Origin: Thermochromatium tepidum ATCC 43061
GTDB taxonomy: Bacteria > Pseudomonadota > Gammaproteobacteria > Chromatiales > Chromatiaceae
Reading direction: 5' to 3'
DNA length: 64,000 nucleotides
Assembly: GCF_009664085.1 (NCBI RefSeq)
Contig: NZ_CP039268.1
Coordinates: forward strand, 1,473,501 to 1,537,500
In this document: positions 23,506 through 61,781 of the stretch, piece after piece
Layout: each line of letters begins with the position of its first letter
How positions within the stretch are numbered: the first letter of the stretch is position 1
Made by a program: the position numbers and the translations under genes
The notes under the pieces: model-generated
The model's database searches: none
What the model saw: only the letters and a program-made list of their open reading frames with translations
What the model was told of the DNA's origin: nothing

Positions 23506-26500
23506 TTAGGAAACAGGCGAGGCGCTAAGCCTCACCCAAATGGAATGGCGACCCGAACCAGCGGTCAGCCGGGCACGCGCGGCGCCGTCCAGGATATTCA
23601 GGGGTTTGCCGTCGAGCGTCGCTGCGACCACTGACCCGCCGCGTCCGTTATCCACCGTGATCTCGCACTCGGTCACCCCGTCGGGCAGACGGTAGCGCAC
23701 ACGAAAGCCTGGCCAGCTCGCCGGGATACAGGGACGGATCACCAACTCGCGTCCGTTCTCGAGCCGCACACCCAGGATGGATTCGAGCGCCACCCGATAC
23801 CACCAGCCTGCCGAACCCGTATACCAGCTCCAGCCGCCGCGACCCACATGGGGCGGCTCGGCATAGATGTCGGCAGCGATCACATAGGGTTCGAGCCGGT
23901 AGCGCGCGACGTCCTCGGCGGTTTGGCTGTGGTTGATCGGACTGAGTCGTACCAGCCAGGGTGCCGCCTGGTCGCACCAGCCGAGCTTGGCCAGGGCCGC
24001 GACCGCCCAGCAGGCGGCATGGGTGTACTGGCCACCGTTCTCACGCACCCCGGCGACATAGCCCTTGATATAGCCGGGGTCGCGCGGGGTGGTGACGAAA
24101 GGCGGGGTCAGCAAGCGGATCAGCCGATCCGATTCGCTGGCGAGCTCCCGCAACAGCGAATCGAGCGTCTGCTCGGCGCGCTCGCGCGGCACTGCGCCAG
24201 AGAGCACCGCCCAGGATTGTACCAGGGCATCGATCCGGCACTCGGTATCCGACGCTGAGCCAAGCGGTGTGCCGTCGTCGTAATAGGCGCGACGGTACCA
24301 GGCACCGTCCCAGCCCGCGCGCTCCAGGGCGCGTTCCAGATCCGCCTGATAGGCACGATAACGGGCCTGGCGCGCCTGATCGCCGCGTCGTTCGCACAGC
24401 GGCAGGAAATCGGCGAGCACCAAGTACAGGAAGAACCCCATCCAGACGCTCTCGCCGCGCCCCTCGCGCCCGACACGGTTCATGCCGTCGTTCCAGTCGC
24501 CGCTGCCCATCAGCGGCAGACCGTGCGCGCCGCGCGTCAAGGAACGATCGATGGCACGGCAACAGTGGTCATAGAGGTCACCGATCTCGCCGCTCGGCAT
24601 CGGGGTCAGATAGTCTTCGTCCTGTCCGGGCGCCAAGGCGGGTGCAGTGAGATAGGGCTGGATCTCGTCCAGGAGGGCGAGGTCACCCGTTACCCGCACA
24701 TACTGGGCGGTGACATAGGGTAGCCACAGCAGGTCGTCGGCGAAACGGGTGCGCAGCCCACGCTCGAGCGGCGCCGGGTGCCACCAATGGAGCACATCGC
24801 CCTCGACGAATTGGTGTGCGGCTGCAAGCAGGATCTGGGCGCGCGTGATGTCCGGGCGGATGACGGCAAGCGCGGCGGCGTCCTGGAGCTGGTCGCGATA
24901 ACCATAGGCACCGCCGGACTGATAGAAGGCCGAGCGGGCCCAGATCCGGCAACCAAGTGTCTGGTAGAGCAGCCAGCCGTTGATCAGCAGATCGATGGCC
25001 GGCTCGGGGGTCTCGACCTGGAGGCGCGAGACCAGGGCGTCCCAGAAGGCCACGGCCTCATCGAAGGCCGTGCGGATGGTCGCCGGATCGGTGTAGCGTC
25101 GTAACAGATCGTTCAGTTGCGTCTCGCTCATCGCCTCGCCGAACAACCAGTCGCAGGTCAGACTGGCGCCCGGCTCGAGCGCCACCGTGAGACGTTGGGC
25201 GAAACAGGGATCGCGCATCCTGCCCTGGCGTCCGTCGAGCCGTCGTCCGGGTTCGAGCGCCACCGGATCGCTTGGATCACGATGGCGCCCGATGAAGGCG
25301 AGCCGGTCGGTGGTGAACTCGCGCGCCCTGACCGAGACGCCCGAGAGGTGCGCCGCCGCGAAGACGATGCCGCCGGCAAATTCACCCGCCTCTGGATTGA
25401 TCGCGCGCAACAGCCCCGACTCAGGCTCGATCGCCGTGACGATGGCGCGGCCCGAGGATGGCTGCTGGCCCATGACCAGACGCTGATAGCCGACCAGTGA
25501 CAGATGCCGCGTACTGGTTCCGGGATTGGTCAGACGCAGTCTGAGGAGGCGCAACGGGTCATGGCGCGGCACGAACAGGGTCGTTTCCTGCGAAAGCCCG
25601 GCATACTGGAGCAAACAGCGCGTAAAGCCCAGTCCATGCGTCACCCGGTAGTCGGCTGGGGCCGGGCGCGGCCCGGGGAACGGTGACCAGGACTCGCCGG
25701 TCGCCTCGTCGCGCACATAGAGCGCCTCACCGTGCGGGTCTAGGACTGGATCGTTCGACCAGGGTGTGAGCCGGTTGACCTGACTGTTGCGCGACCAGGT
25801 GTAGCCCGCGCCCGACTCGCTCACCAGACAACCGAAATCGGGATTGGCGAGGACATTGATCCAGGGCTGCGGCGGACGGCGATGACCGGCGGCCCCCTGA
25901 TATGGAAGCCGGATTTCGTAGCAGCGCCCGTCGGCGGAGAAACCGCCATAGCCGTTGAAGAACCTCAGGTCCGGGGCGGACTCGGCCTCAGACGGGGCGC
26001 AGGGATCGGGCTCGGGACTCACCGGATCCAGAGCGGCGCTCGGATGCCGCCAATCACCGTCCAGCAGGTCCAGCGCCGCTGCCCGCTCCCAGGCGACCCC
26101 GGTGAGCCAGGTCAGTTCGACCTCGGATCCAGGTTGGAGCACGACCCAGGTCCGCAACGCCAGGATGGGGTCGAGTACCGCACCCAGGGTACCAGACAGG
26201 GTATCGGTGCCGGGTGAGAGCGCCGCCGGATGCGCCAGGCGGCGCCCGCGACCGATGAAACGGGCGCGATCGGTCTCCCATTGCCTCCCCTCGCCCCCGA
26301 TCAGGGTCTGGATCAGCCACGGCCAGGACTCGTCCTGACGGCGGGCGCGGCGCCGGGCAAGCAATGCCCCGCTGGCCGGGTCGCGTTCGGTCTGGACAAA
26401 GAGCTTGGCGAATGCCGGATGCGCGGCATCGGCCTCGGCTGGAAAGAGCACCACCTCAAGATAACTGGTCAGCTCCAGGCGCCGCACCCGGTCCGAGCGA

Positions 26501-26871
26501 TTACCGAGGCGCACCTGGCGCCGTTCCAGGTCTTTGCTCGGATCCAGGCTCAGATCGAGCCTCAGTGCGATCCCCGCATCCTCGCGTGCGAGCCAGAACC
26601 GCCCGTCCTGCTCGCCGGTCTGGTAGCGGTCGGGCCTCGCCCGGGTCGGCTGGTAACCGAGCGACCAGACCGCACCCGAGTCCAGGTCGCGTACATAGAG
26701 CAGGCTCCCGAGGTCGTCTTCGACCGGATCCTGGGTCCAGCGGTTTAGGGCCAGTCCGTTCCAGCGCAGCTGGCCGGCGCCCGAATCCGTGATCACGACC
26801 TCGAGCGCCCCTCGGGTCAGTCGATGCAGGGTCGGTTCAGGCCCGTCGGGGGCAAAGGGCTGTCGATCCAT
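23506..26871 (-). CDS. GH94-type phosphorylase-like protein (cyclic beta-1,2-glucan synthase C-terminal homologue)
   Basis: A 1121-residue protein with the architecture of two beta-supersandwich domains (roughly 20-280 and 310-600) followed by an (alpha/alpha)6 barrel and a C-terminal beta domain. The barrel contains GSGDWNDGMNRVG, with Asp 792 and Asp 795 in the position of the GH94 catalytic acid, plus WWHPAPLERGLRTRFADDLLWLPY, ENGGQYTHAACWAV and GWSWYTGSAGWWYR, all typical of GH94 and NdvB C-terminal regions. There is no GT84 domain or membrane segment. Length and tandem sandwiches recall 1,2-beta-oligoglucan phosphorylases; the actual substrate is unproven. It lies 18 bases after the upstream glycosidase-like gene. 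Confidence 0.82.
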   Translation of the reverse strand: MDRQPFAPDGPEPTLHRLTRGALEVVITDSGAGQLRWNGLALNRWTQDPVEDDLGSLLYVRDLDSGAVWSLGYQPTRARPDRYQTGEQDGRFWLAREDAGIALRLDLSLDPSKDLERRQVRLGNRSDRVRRLELTSYLEVVLFPAEADAAHPAFAKLFVQTERDPASGALLARRRARRQDESWPWLIQTLIGGEGRQWETDRARFIGRGRRLAHPAALSPGTDTLSGTLGAVLDPILALRTWVVLQPGSEVELTWLTGVAWERAAALDLLDGDWRHPSAALDPVSPEPDPCAPSEAESAPDLRFFNGYGGFSADGRCYEIRLPYQGAAGHRRPPQPWINVLANPDFGCLVSESGAGYTWSRNSQVNRLTPWSNDPVLDPHGEALYVRDEATGESWSPFPGPRPAPADYRVTHGLGFTRCLLQYAGLSQETTLFVPRHDPLRLLRLRLTNPGTSTRHLSLVGYQRLVMGQQPSSGRAIVTAIEPESGLLRAINPEAGEFAGGIVFAAAHLSGVSVRAREFTTDRLAFIGRHRDPSDPVALEPGRRLDGRQGRMRDPCFAQRLTVALEPGASLTCDWLFGEAMSETQLNDLLRRYTDPATIRTAFDEAVAFWDALVSRLQVETPEPAIDLLINGWLLYQTLGCRIWARSAFYQSGGAYGYRDQLQDAAALAVIRPDITRAQILLAAAHQFVEGDVLHWWHPAPLERGLRTRFADDLLWLPYVTAQYVRVTGDLALLDEIQPYLTAPALAPGQDEDYLTPMPSGEIGDLYDHCCRAIDRSLTRGAHGLPLMGSGDWNDGMNRVGREGRGESVWMGFFLYLVLADFLPLCERRGDQARQARYRAYQADLERALERAGWDGAWYRRAYYDDGTPLGSASDTECRIDALVQSWAVLSGAVPRERAEQTLDSLLRELASESDRLIRLLTPPFVTTPRDPGYIKGYVAGVRENGGQYTHAACWAVAALAKLGWCDQAAPWLVRLSPINHSQTAEDVARYRLEPYVIAADIYAEPPHVGRGGWSWYTGSAGWWYRVALESILGVRLENGRELVIRPCIPASWPGFRVRYRLPDGVTECEITVDNGRGGSVVAATLDGKPLNILDGAARARLTAGSGRHSIWVRLSASPVS

Positions 26872-26889
26872 GTCGATCGCCTCTTTGAG

Positions 26890-29800
26890 TCAGCCGAGCA
26901 GCGCGACCTCGGCCGGCAGGGTCATCAGATGGGCCGCCGTCGCATTGAAATCACGGCTCGGCTCACCATCGATCGTGACGGATGTCAGCGGTCCGGGCAG
27001 CGGCGGGGCCAGCCACAGACCGCCAGGTGGCAATCGCAGTTCCCCGCCGACCTGGATCCGCACCGCACCACCCTCGAAGCGCGCGATCTCCAGATCGAGC
27101 CGACCATAAGCCGTCGGCAGACGGCGCACGCGGATCTCGCCTGACTCCAACCACTTGGCCGGCAAACCGCCAGCGATCACAAGTGAGCGATCCGAGGCAC
27201 GCTCATAGACGAAGAGATCGCGGAACACCAGACAGTATTCGGCCCCGATCCAGGCATGGGGCAGATCGCCCTGATGGCCAGGTGACCTGGGGTCGCGCCA
27301 GGTGATCTCGGGCCACTGGTTCCAGACCGGGGGCCGGCGCTCGGCGAGATAGACCTCCAACAGCTCCTGGGCCTCCGCGCGCCACCCGAGCCGGATCAGG
27401 GCGCCGATGATCCGGATCTCATAGGCGGTGTAGTTGACCCAGTGCACGGGGTCTGGTCCATGGATGGCGCGAAAGCGCTCTATGAATCGCTCGAAGGTGT
27501 GTCGCACGGCCGCCGCCGGCAGGCGGTGGGACTCGTCGATCAGGGTCAGTGCCATGGCGGTCGAGGTCGGGTCGTGATCGGCCCACTCGACCGATCCAGG
27601 CAGGAAATCGATGCCGCGCTCCTCCATGACCCGATCCAGTGACAGATAGAGGGCGGCGCTGAAATCATCCCGCAGACGGGCGAAGTGCGCGGCGCGCTCG
27701 GTGTCGCCCAGCACCTCGGCCAGCTCGACGGCATCCTTGAACCCACGCAGCGCCCAAAAGTCGTCCCAATACGAATGGACCGGATGGGCCAGATAGCCCT
27801 CGTGGCTCACCGACTCGGGCAACAGACCCAGACAGGCGCGGCGCTCGGGTTCCCGATCGCGCGGGGTGAGATGCTCGGCACGCAACGGCTCCAGATAGGC
27901 GACGGCCTTGCAGACCGCCGGCCAGCGTGACTCCAGACGCCCCCGATCCGCACCAAACCGCCAACACTCGGCGATGGCAAAGATGAACTGGCCCGGGCTG
28001 TCATGTTCGACCAAGGGGTCCACCCCCTGCCGATCGACACAACAGGGCACCCGACCGTCCTCGCCCTGGAACTGGGCATACCAGTCGACGAATGATTCTG
28101 CCTCCTCGGTCAGGCCGAAACGCAGGAGCGCCGCCACCATGACGGCGCCGTCCCGGATCCAGGAGCGTGCATACCGGCGCGGTCCGGGCTGGAGTGCAGG
28201 ACCGTCGCGATTGATCAGGATATGCGCCAGTGCGCCCAAGCAGCCGTGCCAAGGGTCGTGCACAACCTCCGGTAGGTGCAGCTCGACGGCACCGAGTCGC
28301 TGCGACCATTGATCGATCGCGGCCTTCAGACGCATTTCGATGCCGCCCGCCGCGCCCCTCAATTCGATCGGATGCGCATCGCCGCGTTCGCCCAGAGGCG
28401 CGGCGATCCAGACCTCGCCATGAGCGCCGGGCGCGACGTTCAGATCGAAGCGCAAGGCCGCAGAGGCAAGGCCGAACCCATCCTCGATCGCCTCGACCTC
28501 AGGCAGATTTCCGGTCGCGATCGCCTCGACGATCGGACCCTCGTCGAAAGTCATGGCCCCAAAACCGGACGGCGTCGAGAGCGGAACCAAGGCCAGCCTG
28601 TCATCGACCCACACTTCGCCCTGTCCCAGGGCGATCCGGTGGATGCGTGACACCCCGCCGATGTCTCTATGTCCCTGCCAGGGCGGCGAGACCTGAAAGG
28701 GGCGGATCAGGGTATAGAGATCCGCACTCAAGGGCCCAGTCCCCCGGTTCTCCAGCCGGTAGCGGATGAACAGCCACGCCCTCCCCGGCGCGCCCTGAGC
28801 AAAGGCCGTGGTCTCGAATACCAGGTCCTCGGTATTCCAGAGCGAACGCGGGATCGGCAGCGGCGGCTGGAGCAGCGAGGGCTCGACAGTGCAGTCGGCC
28901 CAGGTCAGCCGTTTGCCCCGAACGCACAGCAGTGGCTCGATCGCATGGCCGGCACGCGCGACCTCGATCAGCCCGTCCTCGTTGAACAGTGCCGGGACCG
29001 TGCCGTCCGGGATGTCGATCGCGGTCCAGTAGGTCTGTTCGCGATACAGCCAGCGAGGATAGAGGCCACAGGGTGACTGTTCGGCCAGATGGTGAAAGAA
29101 GTCGGCGATGGAGCGGGCGAAGGTCTCGGGCTTGAGTTCGAGACCGACCAGACCCGGGGCCGGCTCACCCTCCCCGGCCTCCAGTCCGAGCCGCAGGAAC
29201 CGTGAACAGCCATCTGGCAGATACACAGGACTGCAGAGACCACGCGAGCGGGGCGCTGCATGCAGGGGCCTCCAGGTCTCACCATCGTCGCTGGCCAGGA
29301 TCTCGAAGGCGTGCGGCCCGGCCCCCTCCCAGTGCAGGATCAGGGCGCTATAGTCGCGCGGTTCATGGAAATCCAGTTCGATCCAGGCCGGCAGGTGCGC
29401 GGCACACCAGGCCGTATCGGATCGCCCATCCAGGACGCAGCCCGCCTCCTGCCCGGGCTGTTCGCTGGAGGCGCGGACGCTGGGCGGCTGCGAGGGCGTG
29501 CGATCCTCAAGCCGCAGATCGGCGATCCACAGCCGCCCACACCCGCCCGGACCTGCGGTGATGGCGAGCTCGATGGCCCCGACCTCGGTCGGGGCACCGC
29601 CGCCGGCTGGCCCCCAGCCGAAGGCGATCGCGCGACTGCCGATACGCAGCTCGCGCCAGTCCGAATCGAAGTCGAATGACTCGTCGCGAAAACGCCAGAC
29701 GTTCTCGCCGCTGGGATCGATCAGCTTGAACTCGAAGACATTGGCCGGGGCCTCGGCACGCACGTGCATGAGCAGGGCAAAGCTGTCGGGCAGGCTCAGA

Positions 29801-29979
29801 GACAGCGCCCGACGCGCGACCACGAACCCCCCGCCCTCGCCGAAGTCGAAGTCCAACCGCAGCGCGCGACCCCCGCCTTGCGGTCCAACATCGGCGGCCA
29901 GGTCGAGACGCGCCTGCCCCGAAACGACGCTGGACCAGCTAGAGAGGTCACTGAAATCGTCCAGATCCAGGATATGCAT
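26890..29979 (-). CDS. F5/8-domain (alpha/alpha)6-barrel glycosidase-like protein
   Basis: A 1029-residue cytosolic protein with no signal peptide. The start at 29979 (MHILDLDDFSD) has a GAGGAG eight bases upstream. Domain order: an N-terminal jelly-roll resembling a carbohydrate-binding module (1-150), an F5/8 type C domain (about 155-280; VLDGRSDTAWCA, IELDFHEPRDYSALIL), a beta-sandwich (290-560), an (alpha/alpha)6 barrel (about 580-930) and a C-terminal beta domain. The barrel has RSWIRDGAV (Asp 610), EHDSPGQF (Asp 660) and HSYWDDFWALRG, resembling the active-site acids of GH15/GH63/debranching-type barrels. The glycosidase family cannot be fixed by eye. It is the first gene of a three-gene operon with the GH94-type gene. 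Confidence 0.75.
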   Translation of the reverse strand: MHILDLDDFSDLSSWSSVVSGQARLDLAADVGPQGGGRALRLDFDFGEGGGFVVARRALSLSLPDSFALLMHVRAEAPANVFEFKLIDPSGENVWRFRDESFDFDSDWRELRIGSRAIAFGWGPAGGGAPTEVGAIELAITAGPGGCGRLWIADLRLEDRTPSQPPSVRASSEQPGQEAGCVLDGRSDTAWCAAHLPAWIELDFHEPRDYSALILHWEGAGPHAFEILASDDGETWRPLHAAPRSRGLCSPVYLPDGCSRFLRLGLEAGEGEPAPGLVGLELKPETFARSIADFFHHLAEQSPCGLYPRWLYREQTYWTAIDIPDGTVPALFNEDGLIEVARAGHAIEPLLCVRGKRLTWADCTVEPSLLQPPLPIPRSLWNTEDLVFETTAFAQGAPGRAWLFIRYRLENRGTGPLSADLYTLIRPFQVSPPWQGHRDIGGVSRIHRIALGQGEVWVDDRLALVPLSTPSGFGAMTFDEGPIVEAIATGNLPEVEAIEDGFGLASAALRFDLNVAPGAHGEVWIAAPLGERGDAHPIELRGAAGGIEMRLKAAIDQWSQRLGAVELHLPEVVHDPWHGCLGALAHILINRDGPALQPGPRRYARSWIRDGAVMVAALLRFGLTEEAESFVDWYAQFQGEDGRVPCCVDRQGVDPLVEHDSPGQFIFAIAECWRFGADRGRLESRWPAVCKAVAYLEPLRAEHLTPRDREPERRACLGLLPESVSHEGYLAHPVHSYWDDFWALRGFKDAVELAEVLGDTERAAHFARLRDDFSAALYLSLDRVMEERGIDFLPGSVEWADHDPTSTAMALTLIDESHRLPAAAVRHTFERFIERFRAIHGPDPVHWVNYTAYEIRIIGALIRLGWRAEAQELLEVYLAERRPPVWNQWPEITWRDPRSPGHQGDLPHAWIGAEYCLVFRDLFVYERASDRSLVIAGGLPAKWLESGEIRVRRLPTAYGRLDLEIARFEGGAVRIQVGGELRLPPGGLWLAPPLPGPLTSVTIDGEPSRDFNATAAHLMTLPAEVALLG

Positions 29980-30160
29980 GCAGTCACTCCTCGGCGATGG
30001 GGTACGCACCCGAAACCCGCCGACATGGCGCTCCGGCGGGCGGTGGAATGCCTCTCGGCAACACGGGCGCTAGGCTATACTGGGCGCGGCCCAAAGTCAT
30101 CCGATGGTCGCATCGTTCCGACCGATGCCCGAACCGTTCCATCAGACCGACTCATTTTTC

Positions 30161-30555
30161 TCAGACAGCAACAAAGCTGACGTCCCGCTTCAGGACGGAC
30201 CATCCGGAAGGATGGTCCCTGGCCGCATTCAGATCCCGATCTTGGCTTGTGCCGCAGACCGGGCCAATCTGCGATTGGCTAAGCCCTTCTTCCAGCGCGA
30301 CAGCCCCCCGGGACAAGCGCCGCCGGCAAGACAGCAGCGCCCGCTGTGGCTTGGGGCCGGCGCCCTTTTCTCCCGTCGAACGCCGTGCCCACCTCAAGAC
30401 GCCGATCAACCCGGCCCTCAAAAAGACGTGGATCGCGCCTTACGGCGCTCCTACAGACCCAACTAACCCAAGGATCGCCCGTTGCGGGGCACGCTCTTGG
30501 AATAGATCGCCTGCCGGTTGTTGGGGTTGAGCGCGATCTTGTGGGCGATGATCAT
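30161..30555 (-). pseudogene. Decayed tnpB (IS200/IS605 family)
   Basis: On the minus strand an ATG at 30555 begins MIIAHKIALNPNNRQAIYSK, the hallmark helix-turn-helix start of TnpB. The frame leaves homology after about 20 residues and stops at 30463. Further on, other frames contain KKGLANRRLARS and PVCGTSQDRDLNAARDH, which match the RuvC-side helix and the zinc-ribbon tail (CGxxxDRDxNAA). The middle of the gene (about 300 codons) is missing. Two palindromes, CGTCCCGCTTCAGGACG and GGACCATCCGGAAGGATGGTCC, near 30180-30217 look like the element's right end. A REP-like sequence lies between the surviving pieces. Confidence 0.65.
30431..30457. repeat. REP-like palindrome inside the tnpB remnant
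   Basis: GCGCC-TTAC-GGCGC (30435-30448), flanked by TCCTACA. The same flank follows the palindromes at 18014-18027 and (as TGTAGGA) at 37093-37112. The stem sequence differs but the GATCGCG...GCTCCTACA frame is shared, which is typical of REP family members. Confidence 0.55.
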
Positions 30556-30644
30556 TGGTTTTCGGTTTGAATGCAGGCAAAAACGCAAGAGTACGAAAGA
30601 ACGAGCAAGTCTTAAAGGTTGCTCTAACCCCAGGGTCGGGGCGA

Positions 30645-31688
30645 TCAGCTCGATCCATCGAGCAAGAGTCGACGATAACAGGGTTCCGACATCAGGGGCT
30701 GGGTATCCAGTTCATCTTCGGGAAGACATCTCTTTTCGACCAGGAGACTCAGTTTGGCATATTGATCGGCGATGGCCAGGATCGCACCCAGCCAAGAACG
30801 CGCCGCATTCGGCTCCGGATTGGCCTGCTCGTCGATGGCGCGGATGATGCCTTCGGGAAAATCCCATTCCTTGATGATGCGGTGCGAGGTCTGTCTGGAT
30901 CGCTCGATGAAGACGGCATAGAAGGCGCGCGAATTCGGGATCAGATCGCGCGGACTTGCAAGCACCTGATCCATGAGCCGAAAGCCGACCATGAGACCCA
31001 CATTCGCGACCAGCCCGGCTAGATAGGCCGAGAACACATCCTGATCGCGATGCTCGGCCAGACAGTGGCAGACTAAGGCACAGCGTTCGGACTGGGTCCA
31101 GACGCGCCCGGCAGCCAGATTGGTGAAATGTCCAGATTTGAGATTAAAGATCGGATAGAAGGCCACGCGCGCGATGATCTGATGGAGTCCGTCGCGCCCC
31201 AAGATCAAGACCGCCTGTTCGATGCTCGAGATCTTGTGCGCGCGCCGATAGTAGGGACTGTTGGCCACGCGAATGACTTCCCCCACCAGCACCGGATCCT
31301 TGGCGATCTGGCGCGCCAACTGCGCGCCGGTCATGGTGTCGTCCTTCAGACTGCGCATCAGTTGCGGAATCACCATCGGCAGGCGCGGAACCAGGGTGGA
31401 ACTTGACTTCTGGCCCGTGACCAGTTGCTCGAAGGCGTCGAGCACGCGACTCTCGGATGGACTCAGCGGCCAATCGGTTAAGGCGTCCAGATCGAGCAGC
31501 CAGGGATAGAACCAGGGATCGATGCTGATCGTCGGTATACCCAGATCGAGTGCCTCCGCGTTCGACTCAGGATCGCCTTTGGGTTCGACGTCCTCGATCG
31601 CATCGGAGACATCGCTCGTCTCTTCGAGCGATACCTGCGCCGGCTTGCCGTGCAACAGACGAGCGAACAGATTGCTTAAAAAACTCAT
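30645..31688 (-). CDS. HDOD-domain protein
   Basis: A 347-residue cytosolic protein with an HDOD domain over about residues 95-290 (VPRLPMVIPQLMRSLKDD, LARQIAKDPVLVGEVIRVANSPYY, SIEQAVLILGRDGLHQIIARVAF). HDOD proteins are HD-related signalling modules that generally lack the metal-binding HD pair, so an enzymatic role is not predicted. The N-terminal 90 residues are acidic and poorly conserved. It begins inside the end of the helicase gene (ATGA overlap), so the two are co-translated. The biological role is unknown. Confidence 0.82.
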   Translation of the reverse strand: MSFLSNLFARLLHGKPAQVSLEETSDVSDAIEDVEPKGDPESNAEALDLGIPTISIDPWFYPWLLDLDALTDWPLSPSESRVLDAFEQLVTGQKSSSTLVPRLPMVIPQLMRSLKDDTMTGAQLARQIAKDPVLVGEVIRVANSPYYRRAHKISSIEQAVLILGRDGLHQIIARVAFYPIFNLKSGHFTNLAAGRVWTQSERCALVCHCLAEHRDQDVFSAYLAGLVANVGLMVGFRLMDQVLASPRDLIPNSRAFYAVFIERSRQTSHRIIKEWDFPEGIIRAIDEQANPEPNAARSWLGAILAIADQYAKLSLLVEKRCLPEDELDTQPLMSEPCYRRLLLDGSS

Positions 31689-53974: not shown

Positions 53975-54367
53975 CACTCGTGCCCCTGTTGTGGTCCTTT
54001 GAGACCTGTTGGCCCTCACCAAGCGTTGAGCGGCACCACACTCTTTGAGTCCCAGGACTTGCCCCCGTCATGGCGTCGCCCGGTGATGGCGGGACCCACC
54101 CACTCAGGTGGATCTAAAAACTGGTGTCTATACAGCAGTTTCCCCACACCCTGGCCAATCGCCGGCCTTGTCAACCCAATTTGGGTCTAGCCACACTATC
54201 TGGTTAGAGCTATACTCGCTAACTACTACATATTGTGCCCAAGCCGGCGGGTGCTTTCAGTTCCAACCAGCGCCAAGGGTACTGATTTGGAACGAAAAGC
54301 GCGATTTCACCCAAGGCAGGGCAGCGACATCTCCGCCTCAAAACCGCACCAGAAACCGAGGATCAAG
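53975..54367. other. Intergenic region mutS-nrdD (promoter and leader of nrdD)
   Basis: A 393-base region without a supportable gene. It includes paired NrdR-like boxes (54191-54238), described separately, and about 130 bases of leader before the nrdD start. No clear mutS terminator was found. Confidence 0.5.
54191..54238 (+). promoter_or_regulatory. Tandem NrdR-like boxes upstream of nrdD
   Basis: The NrdR consensus is acaCwAtATaTwGtgt. The second box (54223-54238, core CTACATATTG) matches the 10-base core at 9 of 10 positions. The first (54191-54206, core CACTATCTGG) matches 7 of 10. The cores start exactly 32 bases apart, about three helical turns, the spacing usual for paired NrdR boxes. 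NrdR represses ribonucleotide reductase genes when (d)ATP is high. Matching was done by eye. Confidence 0.6.
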
Positions 54368-56419
54368 ATGGCCAACCAGACGCACTCTCCCAGTCCCCCA
54401 ACCCGCGTGATCAAGCGCGATGGGCAGGAGGTACGTTTCGATGCCAGCAAGATCGAATCGGCGATCTATCGTGCTGGGCAGGCCAGCGGCGAGTTTGGTG
54501 CCGCCGAAGCCAGTCTGCTGACCGCCCAGGTGGTCAAGGTGCTCGCGCACCGTTTCAGCGATGGCCGTCTGCCCGACATCGAGGCCATCCAAGACGTCGT
54601 CGAACAGACGCTGATCGCCGCCAACCACTTCGGGACTGCGCGCGCCTATATCGTCTATCGCGAGCAGCACAAGAAACTGCGCACCGACCGCCGAACCCTG
54701 GTCGATGTCAGCGCCTCGATCAACGAATATCTGGACCGCTCCGATTGGCGCGTGGCGGCCAATGCCAATCAGGGCTACTCACTCGGTGGGCTGATCCTCA
54801 ATACCGCGGGCAAGATGATCGCCAACTACTGGCTCAATCATGTCTATCCGCCCGAGATCGGCGCCGCGCATCGCGAGGGCGATCTGCACATCCACGACCT
54901 GGACATGCTCTCGGGCTATTGTGCCGGCTGGTCGCTGCGCACCCTGCTCAACGAAGGGCTCAATGGCGTGCCCGGCAAGGTTGAGGCGGCGCCACCCAAG
55001 CACATGTCGAGTGCCATCGGGCAGATCGTCAACTTTCTCGGCACGCTTCAGAACGAGTGGGCTGGCGCCCAGGCGTTCTCCAGTTTCGATACCTATATGG
55101 CGCCCTTCGTGCGCGTCGATCGCTTGTCCTACACCCAGGTCAAGCAATACATCCAGGAGCTGATCTATAACCTCAACGTGCCATCCAGATGGGGGACACA
55201 GACACCCTTTACCAATCTCACCTTCGATTGGGTGTGTCCCGAAGATCTACGCGAGCAGGTGCCGGTGATCAGCGGTAAGGAGCAACCCTTCACCTATGGC
55301 GAGCTCCAGACCGAGATGGACATGATCAATCGCGCCTATATCGAGGTCATGACCGAGGGCGATGCCAAGGGGCGGATCTTCACCTTTCCGATCCCGACCT
55401 ACAACATCACACCGGATTTCCCCTGGGAGAGCGAGAACGCCCAGCGATTGTTCGAGATGACCGCCAAATATGGTCTGCCCTACTTCCAGAACTTCATCAA
55501 CTCGGAACTCTCGCCCAACATGGTGCGCTCCATGTGCTGCCGGCTCCAGCTCGATCTGCGCGAGCTGCTCAAGCGCGGCAACGGGCTCTTTGGTTCCGCC
55601 GAGCAGACCGGATCGCTCGGTGTCGTCACGATCAACTGTGCACGGCTTGGTTACCTGTACCGGGGTGATGAGGCCGGTCTGATGGTGCGGCTCGACGCGC
55701 TGCTCGACCTGGCGCGCAACAGCCTAGAGATCAAGCGCAAGGTCATCCAACGCCACCTGGATGCTGGGCTCTTCCCCTATACCAAGCGCTATCTCGGCAC
55801 CTTGCGTAACCACTTCTCGACCATCGGCGTCAACGGCATCAACGAGATGATCCGCAACTTTACCCAGGATGCCGAGGACATCACCACCGCTTGGGGACAT
55901 GATCTCGCCTGCCGGCTGCTCGATCGGATCCGGGCGCGCCTGGTCGAGTTTCAGGAGCAGACCGGCAATCTGTACAACCTGGAGGCGACCCCTGCCGAGG
56001 GCACGACCTATCGTTTTGCGCGTGAGGACCAGAAGCGCTTTCCGGACATCATCCAGGCCGGCACCAAGGAGGCCCCCTATTACACCAATAGCTCACAGTT
56101 GCCGGTCGGCTATACCGACGACCCCTTTGAGGCCCTGGCGATGCAGGAGACGCTCCAGAGCAAATACACAGGTGGCACCGTGCTGCATCTGTATATGAGC
56201 GAGCGGATCTCTTCAGCCGAAGCCTGCAAACGTCTGGTGCGCCGCGCCCTGGAGAACTTCCGTCTGCCCTATATCACGGTCACACCGGTGTTCTCTATCT
56301 GCCCCAAGCACGGCTATATCGCGGGCGAGCATCAGTTCTGCCCGATCTGCGACGAGGAGCTGATCGCACGCAAGCGCAAGGCCCAGTGCGCGAGCATGGA
56401 CTGCCAGTCGATCCACTAA
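54368..56419 (+). CDS. nrdD: Anaerobic ribonucleoside-triphosphate reductase, large part lacking the glycyl-radical segment
   Basis: Class III RNR catalytic subunit that makes dNTPs without oxygen. The start is the ATG at 54368 (MANQTHSP), giving 683 aa; longer frames enter the promoter region. The N terminus (RVIKRDGQEVRFDASKIESAI) is the ATP-cone, and the barrel includes GDLHIHDLDMLSGYCAGW, NLNVPSRWGTQTPFTNLTFDW and SPNMVRSMCCRLQLDLREL. The C terminus has the Zn-site cysteines (ICPKHGY, FCPICDEEL, CASMDC) but stops there: the glycyl-radical R-V-x-G-Y region that normally follows is missing. That region is on the next small ORF. Confidence 0.9.
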   Translation: MANQTHSPSPPTRVIKRDGQEVRFDASKIESAIYRAGQASGEFGAAEASLLTAQVVKVLAHRFSDGRLPDIEAIQDVVEQTLIAANHFGTARAYIVYREQHKKLRTDRRTLVDVSASINEYLDRSDWRVAANANQGYSLGGLILNTAGKMIANYWLNHVYPPEIGAAHREGDLHIHDLDMLSGYCAGWSLRTLLNEGLNGVPGKVEAAPPKHMSSAIGQIVNFLGTLQNEWAGAQAFSSFDTYMAPFVRVDRLSYTQVKQYIQELIYNLNVPSRWGTQTPFTNLTFDWVCPEDLREQVPVISGKEQPFTYGELQTEMDMINRAYIEVMTEGDAKGRIFTFPIPTYNITPDFPWESENAQRLFEMTAKYGLPYFQNFINSELSPNMVRSMCCRLQLDLRELLKRGNGLFGSAEQTGSLGVVTINCARLGYLYRGDEAGLMVRLDALLDLARNSLEIKRKVIQRHLDAGLFPYTKRYLGTLRNHFSTIGVNGINEMIRNFTQDAEDITTAWGHDLACRLLDRIRARLVEFQEQTGNLYNLEATPAEGTTYRFAREDQKRFPDIIQAGTKEAPYYTNSSQLPVGYTDDPFEALAMQETLQSKYTGGTVLHLYMSERISSAEACKRLVRRALENFRLPYITVTPVFSICPKHGYIAGEHQFCPICDEELIARKRKAQCASMDCQSIH

Positions 56420-56768: not shown

Positions 56769-57506
56769 ATGCCCGACGGCGCACCCTGTGTCACGTCCGA
56801 CCAGCCTCAGACCGCTGAGCGGCTGAGGGTCGGCGGCTTTACGCGCCTGACGACCATCGACTATCCCGGCGAGCTGTCGGCGGTGGTCTTCTGTCAAGGC
56901 TGTCCCTGGCGCTGTCGCTATTGTCAAAACGGCGATCTACTGGACTCGACCGCCGTTGAATCGCTGATCGATTGGGCGGACATCCGTGCCTTTCTGCGCG
57001 GGCGGGTCGGACTGCTCGATGCCGTGGTTTTCAGTGGTGGTGAGCCGACCGTACAGACGGCGCTCGGTGCAGCCATGCGCGAAACCCGCGCGCTCGGTTA
57101 CAAGATCGGCCTGCACACCAGCGGCGCCTATCCCGAACGCTTGCGCACACTTCTGCCGCTGATCGATTGGGTCGGACTCGATATCAAGACGCTGCCCGAG
57201 GACTATGCGGCCCTCACTGGCCTGCCCGATTCGGGTGAGCGTGCCTGGGCGAGTTTGGCCTTGCTGCTGGAAGCGGGAGTGAACCTGGAAGTCCGCACCA
57301 CCCTAATGCCCGGCTGGACATCTGACTATCTGCACGTCCTGAGCTGCACGCTGGCCGCGACCGGCGTTCGGCGCTATGTGCTGCAAATCTGTGCGACCCA
57401 GCGGGCGCTCGATCCCAACCTGCCCGGCTACTCGATCATGCCGCGCGAACTCGTCGAAGCGGTCGACCCACTACTTTTCGAGCACCTCGACATTCGCGGG
57501 ATGTGA
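56769..57506 (+). CDS. nrdG: Anaerobic RNR-activating radical SAM protein
   Basis: A 245-residue radical SAM enzyme that installs the glycyl radical. The cluster motif CPWRCRYC (C-x3-C-x2-C) is near residues 45-52, followed by FSGGEPTVQ and VGLDIKTLPEDY, as in NrdG/PflA-type activases. The N-terminal RVGGFTRLTTIDYPGELSAVVF is typical of the NrdG2 subgroup. It starts 42 bases after the glycyl-radical ORF, forming an nrdD-glycyl ORF-nrdG operon. It converges with hupD only 10 bases away. Confidence 0.93.
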   Translation: MPDGAPCVTSDQPQTAERLRVGGFTRLTTIDYPGELSAVVFCQGCPWRCRYCQNGDLLDSTAVESLIDWADIRAFLRGRVGLLDAVVFSGGEPTVQTALGAAMRETRALGYKIGLHTSGAYPERLRTLLPLIDWVGLDIKTLPEDYAALTGLPDSGERAWASLALLLEAGVNLEVRTTLMPGWTSDYLHVLSCTLAATGVRRYVLQICATQRALDPNLPGYSIMPRELVEAVDPLLFEHLDIRGM

Positions 57507-57516
57507 AGGGAACGCG

Positions 57517-58191
57517 CTACCCCATTTCGATGCACGGACGCCCGGATTCGTAGACCTCCAGCCCCAGGGACGGATGCGGCAGATCGCGATAGTCCGTCGT
57601 TTCAGACGCCTCACAGTCCTCCCACTCAACGCCGAATGCCTCCAGATACTCGCGTGCCAGATGGATCGCCGGTTCGATCTGCGCCTTGACCTCGGAGCGC
57701 AGACTACCGCCGAAGTCGTCCAGCTCGACCGGCTGCACCCCGATCAACAGCAAATGGCGCGGATAGTCGCCGAGCAGATCGGCCAGCGCCAGCACCTCCT
57801 GAAAGCCGGTCTGATGCAGGCTCATCTTCTTGGCGCCCATGAACTTGGGCACCTCGTCGCCCTCGACCCGTTTGAGCGTGCCGGGCGGCAGGCCATAGTC
57901 GATGGCGTCGAACACCACCAGCACCTCGGCCCAGCGAATGTCGTCGACCAGATAGATGCCCTGGGTGCCGCCGTCGAGCAGACGCACACTGGGACCGAAG
58001 CGATAGCGGCGGGCGATCTCCTCGATCACCCGCACGCCAAAGCCCTCGTCGGCCCAGAGCACGTTGCCGATGCCGAGCAGCAGGACATTGGGGGCGTTGG
58101 CCTGCCGCGTTTCCCCCGCTCCCCGGCCCTCTCCCCCAGCAGGAGAGGGAGAAACGGAGTGCGACAAACCTAGTTGCGAAGCCCGGCTCAT
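57517..58191 (-). CDS. hupD: Hydrogenase maturation protease with N-terminal extension
   Basis: Endopeptidase that trims the C-terminal tail of the hydrogenase large subunit after nickel insertion. The core begins at PNVLLLGIGNVLWADEGFGVRV. The nickel-binding triad is visible as Glu in ADEGFG, Asp in FDAIDYG and His in SLHQTGFQEVL. The start is the ATG overlapping the hupC stop (ATGA); the 33 residues before the core include SVSPSPAGGEGRGAGE, a peptide translated from a palindromic repeat. Homologues start almost at PNVLLLG. A 224-aa product is predicted. Confidence 0.9.
   Translation of the reverse strand: MSRASQLGLSHSVSPSPAGGEGRGAGETRQANAPNVLLLGIGNVLWADEGFGVRVIEEIARRYRFGPSVRLLDGGTQGIYLVDDIRWAEVLVVFDAIDYGLPPGTLKRVEGDEVPKFMGAKKMSLHQTGFQEVLALADLLGDYPRHLLLIGVQPVELDDFGGSLRSEVKAQIEPAIHLAREYLEAFGVEWEDCEASETTDYRDLPHPSLGLEVYESGRPCIEMG
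58127..58149. repeat. Palindromic repeat inside the hupD start region
   Basis: CCCTCTCC (58127-58134) and GGAGAGGG (58142-58149) form an 8-bp perfect stem around a 7-base loop, in a purine/pyrimidine-strand-biased stretch. It translates as SPSPAGGEGRG on the minus strand. Such sequences are common as dispersed intergenic palindromes in proteobacteria; here it is within the frame. Confidence 0.6.
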
Positions 58192-58880
58192 GGCCGGTCG
58201 TCCTTGAACATGCGCCACCCGCTGATCATCGTACTGATGAGACTCTGACGCGACATGATGTCCTCGCGGATGGCGGTATAGACGTGCAGCATCACGAACA
58301 CGACGATGACCCACATCCCCCAGTGGTGCCACATGCGCACGTCCTGGCTCTGGCCGACGGCCGGGATGACCCAGCCGAAGAGTTCGTCCTGCCAGCTCCC
58401 CAGCCCGGTCTGCTCGGAATAGAGCGCAAACCCCGTGCCCATCATCACCAGACCGCCGACCGTGATGATCGCGACCATGAACAGATGCGCGAGCGGATTG
58501 TGCCCAACGTATTTGCGCGGCTCCGGTTCCTGGAAGGCATACCAGAGCAGCTCGTGTAACAGCTCACTCCAGAACGCACGCCGCCAGAAGGGCAAGGTGA
58601 ACAACTGACGCGAATAGCGGTTGCCCACGACCGCCCAATAGAGCCGGAATAGGAAGCCAACCAGAAACACATAGCCCGCCGCGAAATGCAGGAAGCGAAT
58701 GTTGCCCATCAAATAGTAATCGCCAGCCTCGCCCGGCAGACTCGGCAGCGGGTTAGCGATCAGATAGCCGGTGATAGCCAGGACCGTGATCGCGAGCGCA
58801 TTGACCCAGTGCCAGATCCGCACCGGGGTCTGGTAGACATAGACGGCGGTCTGCTTGACCGTTGGGACGCCGGTGTACAT
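58188..58880 (-). CDS. hupC: Hydrogenase cytochrome b subunit
   Basis: Diheme membrane anchor that passes electrons from HupSL to the quinone pool, 230 aa with four spans. Candidate heme-ligating histidines lie in RIWHWVNAL (span 1), RFLHFAAGY (span 2), and WHHWGMWVIVVFVMLHVYTA (span 4). The start at 58880 (MYTGVPTVK) has GGAGG at optimal spacing; an ATG two codons earlier and a TTG further upstream are alternatives. It sits between hupL and hupD, with an ATGA overlap to the latter. Confidence 0.93.
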   Translation of the reverse strand: MYTGVPTVKQTAVYVYQTPVRIWHWVNALAITVLAITGYLIANPLPSLPGEAGDYYLMGNIRFLHFAAGYVFLVGFLFRLYWAVVGNRYSRQLFTLPFWRRAFWSELLHELLWYAFQEPEPRKYVGHNPLAHLFMVAIITVGGLVMMGTGFALYSEQTGLGSWQDELFGWVIPAVGQSQDVRMWHHWGMWVIVVFVMLHVYTAIREDIMSRQSLISTMISGWRMFKDDRP

Positions 58881-58896
58881 ACGCATAGCCTCCAAA

Positions 58897-60687
58897 TCAG
58901 CGGACCTTGACCCGTGTCAGCTCCTCGCCGTCCGGGCTCATGATGTGCGTCGAGCAGGCCAGACAGGGATCGAAGCTGTGCAGAGTGCGCAGGACCTCCA
59001 GCGGCTGATCGGGCACCGCCACCGGCGTGTTCAGGAGCGCGGCCTCGAAGGCGCCGATATTGCCCGCTGGATCGCGCGGTGAGCCGTTCCAGGTGGTTGG
59101 CACCACGGCCTGATAGTTGGCGATCTTACCCTCCTCGATGACCACCCAGTGACCGAGCGCACCGCGTGGGGCCTCGGTGGTGCCGACACCCTTGGTCAGT
59201 TTCGGCCAAGTCTTGGGTTCCCATTTCTCGGGATTGGCGGTTGCGCTGTCGCCGGCCTTGAGATTGGCCACCAGCTTGTTCTGGAAGTGGCGCAGCTTGT
59301 GCGCCGCCCAGGACGCCTCCAGCCCGCGCGCCGCCGTGCGTCCGAGTGTCGAGAACAGCGCCGAGACCGGAAGCTGCAAGTCGGTCAGCACCTTCTCGAC
59401 CGGCTCCTTGAACTCCGGGATGCCCTTGGCATAGCCGATGATGTAGCGCGCCAGCGGCCCGACCTCCATCGCATGCCCACGCCAGCGCGGAGCCTTGATC
59501 CAACTGTATTTGGCGTTCTCGTCGATGGCCTCGATCCGGGTCTGGCTGCCCTTGGTGTTCGGACCCAGGACGAAGTTCGGCTCGGTCACGCCGTCCCAGG
59601 GGTGCAGTCCCTTGGACTCGTCTTTGTACTTGAACCAGGAATGGGCGACGAACTCCTGGATCTGCTCGGGATCGCGCAGATCGACCTCGTGGACCTCGTC
59701 GAGCTTGCCGTTGATGATGGCGCCGCGCGGCAGGCACTGGTTGTCGGACGAATCGTCGTTGGCGCGCTCCGGGATGTCGCCATAGGAGAGCACGGCCTGA
59801 CAGCTCAAGCCCCCGCCATAGGTCCAGTCTTTGTAGTAAGAAGCGATGGCCATGAGGTCGGGCAGATAGACCTTGTCGATGAACTCAATGGTGCGGTCGA
59901 TGATCGAGGAGACCAGATTCAGCCGCTCCATATTGACCGCGCCCACAGCGCCGGTGTCATGGATGTTGATGGCGCAGGGCACGCCGCCGACCAGCCAGTT
60001 CGGATGCGGGTTCTTACCGCCGTAGATGGTGTGGATCTTGACGATCTCTTTCTGGAAATCGAGCGCCTCCAGATAGTGGGTGACGGCCAGCAGATTGGCC
60101 TCGGGCGGCAGCCGGTAGGCCGGATTGCCCCAGTAGCCGTTGGTGAAGGGACCGAGCTGACCGGACTCGACGAAGCGCTTGATCCGGGTCTGCACGTCGC
60201 GGAAATAGCCGGGCGAGGACAGCGGCCAGTCCGAGATCGACTGCGCCAGCGCCGAGGTCGCCTTGGGATCGGCCTTGAGCGCCGCGACCACGTCTACCCA
60301 ATCGAGCGCATGCAGATGGTAGAAATGCACCAGATGATCGTGCGCGTAGAGTGTCAACTGCATGATGTTGCGGATGGAGTTGGCGTTCTCCGGGATCTGG
60401 ATGTCGAGCGCATCCTCGATGGCGCGCACCGAGGTCAGGGCATGGGTTCCTGTGCAGACACCGCAGATGCGCTGGGTGAAGGCCCAGGCATCGCGCGGAT
60501 CGCGACCGCGCAGGATCACCTCCAGACCGCGCCACATGGTGCCGGTCGAGACGGCGTTGCGGATGACGTTGTCCGCGTCGAGATTGACCTCGCACCGCAT
60601 GTGACCCTCGATGCGGGTCACGGGATCGACGACGACGCGCCGCCCGGCGGTGTCGAGTTGGAAGCCGTTGGGGGTCTGAACGCTCAT
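58897..60687 (-). CDS. hupL: [NiFe] hydrogenase large subunit
   Basis: Carries the NiFe active site of a membrane-bound uptake hydrogenase, 596 aa. The nickel-binding pairs are RICGVCTG (N-terminal) and DPCLACSTH (C-terminal). The His of the latter is followed by a 15-residue tail ([15 protein letters not shown]) removed by HupD. The N-terminal [15 protein letters not shown] is the L1 signature. Its start overlaps the hupS stop (ATGA), so translation is coupled to the small-subunit frame. The reading frame is intact. Confidence 0.97.
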
Positions 60688-61781
60688 GCCTGTTCATCCT
60701 CGGTGCGCTGGGCACCCGCGCGCTGTTTGATCCGATGGACGGCGCTCGCCGCCGCATGCGCGGTGATGGCCGCGCCGACCGCGCCGGCGGCCGCGATCCC
60801 GACGGCGTCGGCGTTGGCCTCAATGCCGAAAACGCGGGTGTCGGTGACATGGTCGTAGAAGCTGCCCTTGTCCCAGAAATCCTTCTCCGAGCAGCCGATG
60901 CAGCCATGCCCCGACTGGATCGGGAACGAAACTCCATCGTTCCAGCGCGTGGTCGAGCAGGCGTTGTAGGTGGTCGGCCCCTTGCAGCCCATTTTGTAGA
61001 GACAGTAGCCCTTGCGCGCACCCTCGTCGTCCCAGGACTCGACGAACTGACCGGCGTCGAAGTGTGGGCGGCGATAGCATTTGTCGTGGATGCGCTGACC
61101 GTAGAACATCTTCGGCCGCCCCTGGCGATCGAGCTCCGGCAGACGCTCGAAGGTCAGCATGTAGGCGATGACGCCGGTCATGACCTCGGCGATCGGCGGA
61201 CAGCCGGGCACCTTGATGATCGGCTTGTCGTGAATGACCTTGTCGATCGAGACGGCCTGGGTCGGATTCGGATGGGCCGCTTGTACGCAGCCCCAGGAGG
61301 CGCAGGTGCCCCAGGCGATGACGGCCTGACAGTCGGCGGCGACCTCGCGCAACTGATCCAGGAAGGGACGCCCGCCGATGATGCAGCTCATGCCGTCCTG
61401 ACCCAGCGGCGGATTGCCCTCGACGGCCAGGATGTAGCGGCCTTTGTACTGATGGCGGATCTAATCGAGGATCGCCTCGGCCTGATGACCGGCGGCGGCC
61501 ATGAGCGTGTCGTTGTAGTCGAGCGAGATCATCGACAGCACGACATCCGAGGCTAGCGGATGGGCCGAGCGGATGAAGGACTCCGAGCAGCAGGTGCACT
61601 CCAGACCGTGCAGCCAGAGCACCGGGATGCGCGGTTTGGTCTCCATGGCCTCGGCGATGCGACCCGCGAAGCCGGGCGCCAGACCCAGGGTCGCGGCCGT
61701 GATGGTGCAGAACTGGAGGAACCCGCGCCGGCTGATCCCCTGCCGGCGCATCGCCTCGTAGAAGGTATCGGTGGTTGCCAT
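60684..61781 (-). pseudogene. hupS: [NiFe] hydrogenase small subunit with in-frame TAG at codon 107
   Basis: Fe-S subunit of the uptake hydrogenase. Codons 1-106 encode a twin-arginine signal (SRRGFLQF) and the proximal-cluster motif [10 protein letters not shown] (Cys 62, 64, 65). Codon 107 (61463-61461) is TAG, preceded by EAILD and followed by [21 protein letters not shown]. The frame then continues intact to 60684 with [15 protein letters not shown] and the [13 protein letters not shown] cluster ligands. Homologues normally have a sense codon here; TAG is one base from GAG (Glu), CAG or AAG. ECTCC plus CASWGC is the six-cysteine pattern of oxygen-tolerant hydrogenases. It may be a null mutation, a sequencing error or read-through; if the base is wrong it is a normal 365-aa hupS. 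Confidence 0.9.

Follow-up and report, generated by a model that had tools for sequence, protein, structure and literature searches.

We asked what an in-frame amber codon signifies in the gene for the small subunit of an uptake hydrogenase, hupS, when the rest of the hupSLCD operon of the thermophilic purple sulfur bacterium Thermochromatium tepidum appears undamaged. The window, the whole stretch of DNA analyzed here (64,000 nucleotides), corresponds to positions 1473501 to 1537500 of a genome assembled as one contig (2,958,290 bases; 99.97% completeness). A 252-residue piece of PufL from this genome is identical along its full length to PDB chain 3wmm_L, which belongs to the LH1-RC structure of T. 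tepidum. At 61461..61463 (genome positions 1534961-1534963) the plus strand reads cta, which gives TAG on the minus strand, where hupS is encoded. Counted from the ATG at 61781, this triplet is codon 107 (position 62 of the mature protein) of a 366-codon frame whose terminal TGA, ending at 60684, is codon 366. The TAG is the sole stop ahead of that TGA, confirming the initial annotation, which had described a frame interrupted at codon 107 that runs on to its normal end. With the TAG read as X, HupS matched TIGR00391 at 553.8 bits (model positions 3 to 358 of 365), and residues 1 to 365 were matched by tblastn in the three nearest relatives at 96.4 to 98.6% identity. Nevertheless, with TAG at codon 107, hupS does not offer the complete open frame of a working small subunit.

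The other three genes of the operon, all on the minus strand, were described at the outset as free of defects, and each is indeed open and matches its family. hupL (58897..60687), which encodes the large subunit of 596 amino acids, matched NF007550 at 924.8 bits over residues 6 to 596, a score below that model's own equivalog cut-off of 1101, and its product is 96.3 to 98.3% identical to those of the three nearest relatives. hupC (58188..58886) encodes the b-type cytochrome subunit (TIGR02125, 236.8 bits; cut-off, 121.5), and hupD (57517..58191; family search queried from 58230) encodes the maturation endopeptidase (TIGR00140, 205.6 bits; cut-off, 151.8). Counterparts of hupD scored above the cut-off in five of seven other genomes of the genus. 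Just past its start codon, at about 58100 to 58186 on the minus strand, hupD carries an 87-base, in-frame, repeat-like insert that leaves the frame unbroken. An alignment of the hupC-hupD junction showed that the insert adds 29 residues relative to Allochromatium vinosum and A. humboldtianum, both of which lack it, and that A. palmeri has a similar insert. Two plus-strand genes, at 56769-57506 and 54365-56419, which we took to encode an anaerobic ribonucleotide reductase and its radical-SAM activase-like protein (with a PF04055 match there), abut the operon and are convergent with hupD. These neighbors are also found in A. palmeri and in the congeneric genome G005 and are absent from the stretches of A. 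vinosum and A. humboldtianum that were examined. The gene order of hupSLCD is the same in A. vinosum, A. humboldtianum, and A. palmeri, with hupH elsewhere; since HupH, found in seven of the eight genomes of the genus (T. tepidum included), always adjoins another hydrogenase small subunit, a hupSLCD operon without hupH is normal here.

The features of HupS are those of an O2-tolerant membrane-bound [NiFe] hydrogenase of the HupSLC/HyaABC/HoxKGZ type (group 1d). HupS aligned without gaps to HoxK over mature residues 1 to 311 (phmmer), shares the CTCC and GTCASWGC motifs of this type, and has the two extra proximal-cluster cysteines, Cys19 and Cys120 in mature numbering, that mark the O2-tolerant form. 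As in the HoxKGZ type, genes for a b-type membrane cytochrome and a maturation protease lie alongside. What sets T. tepidum HupS apart from this type is the TAG at mature position 62. The 106 codons before the stop (61464..61781, minus strand) scored 148 bits alone against the NCBIfam model TIGR00391, under the whole-protein cut-off of 179.5, and encode a Tat signal peptide (TIGR01409, 27.2 bits over residues 16 to 45; cut-off, 16.7) together with mature Cys17, Cys19, and Cys20, the only cysteines ahead of the stop. The part after the stop (60684..61460, minus strand) encodes cysteines 88, 106, 115, 120, 149, 190, 215, 221, 230, 249, and 252 and His187. A truncated HupS would comprise 61 mature residues and, of the cluster ligands, would keep only Cys17, Cys19, and Cys20. 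Because nothing else of the ligand set is kept, under the ligand roles known from the structures of Hyd-1 and MBH, the fragment is predicted to leave all three Fe-S clusters incomplete. The initial annotation had held that a truncated product could not form the medial and distal clusters; this part was borne out, but the limit that it implied was too narrow, as the proximal cluster could not be completed either. Its further expectation of an inactive uptake hydrogenase likewise becomes a stronger prediction than first stated, while the absence of the enzyme stays, like the prediction itself, a reading of the gene.

Codon 107 was compared across relatives at two depths. In the three nearest relatives, which we take to be A. 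vinosum, A. palmeri, and A. humboldtianum, the hupS codon at this position is GAG, in contrast to the TAG of T. tepidum, and it is CAG in G005. The proposal that one base change from GAG would explain the stop therefore held in the very comparison suggested for it. HupS was also aligned to 110 loci, comprising 30 from a whole-genome search of relatives (its own locus included) and 80 from named genomes; 109 gave a match (L032 gave none). As aligned, these 109 comprised 105 distinct sequences, and of the 29 counted from the whole-genome search, 19 were paralogues under 70% identity. The residue at this codon in the 109 loci was E in 83, D in 8, Q in 7, A in 3, N in 2, K in 2, and R, T, and M in 1 each, with the sole stop in T. 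tepidum hupS. At 75% identity or more (n = 76), E was found in 65 loci, D in 5, Q and N in 2 each, R in 1, and a stop in 1. TIGR00391 found matches in 167 of 210 genomes of the order (E ≤ 0.001), and among the order-wide matches listed, a stop was present only in T. tepidum hupS.

We then examined how long the gene might have been evolving with this lesion. Changes were assigned to the T. tepidum branch at sites where the three nearest relatives shared a base that T. tepidum lacked. By this count hupS accumulated 23 synonymous and 4 nonsynonymous changes (pN/pS, 0.054), hupL 26 and 7 (0.086), and hupC 16 and 9 (0.167), while a flanking permease-like gene accumulated 32 and 18 (0.222) and TerC, compared to two relatives only, 45 and 15 (0.106). 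Pairwise ratios for hupS between relatives with an open gene ranged from 0.037 to 0.156, and on these substitution counts T. tepidum hupS appears to be as constrained as hupS is between those relatives. Clopper-Pearson bounds, which assume a neutral ratio of 1, ignore transition bias, and depend on a base ratio chosen by the analyst, place the share of the branch spent without selection at no more than about 11% for hupS (base ratio, 0.05) and no more than 8% for hupS and hupL together (base ratio, 0.065). Given the low pN/pS on this branch and these bounds, the stop is therefore either very young or a sequence error, and the initial suggestion of a very recent mutation gains support from the same counts. 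Single-nonsense recent pseudogenes are known in bacterial strains; they combine one stop and no further decay with prior purifying selection and the presence of related enzymes. hupS shares all of these traits and shows no difference of note from such cases: its closest relatives are intact, the lesion is single, and selection had not been relaxed beforehand. Maximum-likelihood trees of hupS, hupL, hupC, joined hupSLC, and two flanking genes had support values from 31 to 100 that were mostly low and conflicting, and for this reason we make no claim on whether the hup operon has been recombined or transferred.

Such stops are not common in this genome, as far as it was examined. None of the listed matches to the ABC-transporter domain PF00005 (48) and the radical-SAM domain PF04055 (22), 70 in all, had an internal stop, and seven of the eight genome matches to PF01058 were likewise clean, the eighth being hupS. 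A codon-usage scan of 25 stretches of the genome, the window included (516,004 bases; 511,003 without overlap; 5,000 masked), yielded 2,811 same-frame pairs; the best 25 of the 2,811 were listed and 20 of their junctions were judged by eye, leaving 5 unjudged, one of them a duplicate. Among the 20, only hupS resembled a broken gene. The other judged junctions were rejected as neighboring genes with a start soon past the stop or as antisense-like frames. Because the lowest score in the list is close to the average for real coding windows, the scan could overlook over half of the true cases and sets only a weak bound on the rate of such stops. A tblastn search with 1,106 frames of relatives, covering 9,388 bases of the window, returned 61463 as the only stop in a gene's own frame; the others were antisense or off the gene's frame. 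The clean domain matches and the scan together indicate that decay is not general in this genome.

T. tepidum also encodes three other TIGR00391 small subunits, at genome positions 25908, 1761192, and 1811668, none of which contains a stop. A. vinosum, by comparison, has one TIGR00391 match besides HupS. As read from their translations, all three have CTGC and a G in place of Cys120, so that among the genome's four TIGR00391-type small subunits the extra cysteines of O2 tolerance occur in HupS alone. The operons at about 25900-30700 and 1811500-1816600 read as HydS-Isp1-Isp2-HydL, and that at about 1761100-1766300 reads as Hyb-like; these readings come from translations, the small subunits being the members searched against families. 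A further PF01058 match at 1965105, in a frame of 226 amino acids with a weak maturation-protease match nearby, is probably HoxY, judging by its size. Thus, other hydrogenases appear to be available to the cell, and with its three further [NiFe] small subunits free of stops, a loss of hupS may be tolerable.

The initial annotation offered a recent mutation, a base-call error, or a stop that is read through, and the first two fit best. We consider it probable that the stop is a very recent null allele produced by one base change, with HupSLC lost. The chief alternative is that hupS is intact in T. tepidum and that the TAG stems from an error in base calling or assembly or represents a minority variant of the sequenced culture, which we regard as rather unlikely but well worth keeping in mind. 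The sequence would look identical under a very young null allele or an assembly error, and hupS bears every tested mark of function except at one base, as an error would leave it. The parts of the genome scanned showed no other convincing in-frame stop, which also accords with an isolated error, yet the clean domain matches equally suggest that such errors are rare, and the assembly is one nearly complete contig. The type of change has some bearing: on the coding strand, G-to-T changes are rare on the T. tepidum branch (1 of 27 polarized changes in hupS, 0 of 33 in hupL, and 2 of 25 in hupC, with C to A, the same change on the other strand, adding 3 in hupL), a rarity that slightly favors error or damage against a recent null allele. 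In preferring the null allele we infer that the base is real, which way the change went, what class it belongs to, and that the enzyme is absent.

Read-through of the TAG by near-cognate decoding or a suppressor, yielding some full-length HupS, would fit the lack of relaxed selection on the part after the stop. Moreover, since the site tolerates many residues among the 109 loci (paralogues included), a misinserted residue need not be harmful. The decoding machinery argues against it. A check for an amber-suppressor tRNA, as initially proposed, found no CTA anticodon among 43 tRNA matches (42 loci; ARAGORN) in the unmasked sequence. tRNA-Ile(GAT) and tRNA-Ala(TGC) are also missing from these matches, probably because they lie in masked or unlisted parts rather than being truly absent; given these two and the masked part of the genome, the tRNA list has some small gaps. 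The genome encodes RF1 (prfA, 532.5 bits; cut-off, 423.25; model positions 4 to 358 of 361; no internal stop), and PylS (TIGR02367) was not found in the genome (0 of 1) at E ≤ 0.001, in a search that matched 13 of 14 control genomes, only 1 of them over the cut-off. Furthermore, a programmed stop should recur, yet no other aligned locus has one at this codon, and the other small subunits are open among the order-wide matches listed. We therefore hold read-through to be improbable, and its most consequential form, a real TAG usefully decoded to give a small, perhaps condition-dependent supply of O2-tolerant hydrogenase by UAG read-through without a dedicated suppressor, to be highly improbable. 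The hupS TAG raises no question about the genetic code, and our searches gave no sign of a new decoding mechanism. Barely credible, finally, is an old pseudogene or a gene whose halves work as separate proteins through a restart at the first in-frame ATG past the stop (61389..61391, minus strand; codon 131). This ATG lies 23 codons past the TAG and was said to lack a ribosome-binding site, but AGGA stands upstream with 4 bases between, a weak Shine-Dalgarno-like match. That correction leaves the conclusion on the loss of hupS unchanged: the restart product would have neither the Tat signal nor Cys17, Cys19, and Cys20, neither half would hold a complete set of proximal-cluster ligands, and the same stretch lies inside an uninterrupted gene in the relatives. 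Long decay, for its part, is at odds with the low pN/pS of hupS and the narrow bound on its time without selection.

Under the null-allele reading, a G-to-T change on the coding strand would have turned the Glu codon at position 107 into TAG in a gene under strong purifying selection, and RF1 would end translation after 106 residues. The product would retain the Tat signal, but of the cluster ligands only three of the six proximal cysteines and none of the medial or distal ones, and could form no Fe-S relay. In Tat-exported [NiFe] hydrogenases the large subunit is exported together with the small one; HupL would be left without its partner, and the HupSLC enzyme would be lost. Such a loss may be bearable with a probable HoxY gene and three further [NiFe] small subunits still in the genome, in a strain that has presumably long been grown on sulfide.

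No mention of the hupS stop was found in the titles and abstract openings of the literature searched, a scope that did not take in the genome paper (10.1007/s11120-021-00870-y). The case is that of an ordinary recent pseudogene or of a base error. For T. tepidum, an organism of photosynthesis research, this means that gene content by itself is no sufficient basis for ascribing hydrogen metabolism to HupSLC. If real, the stop would be a clear instance of a gene caught very early in its loss while related enzymes remain.
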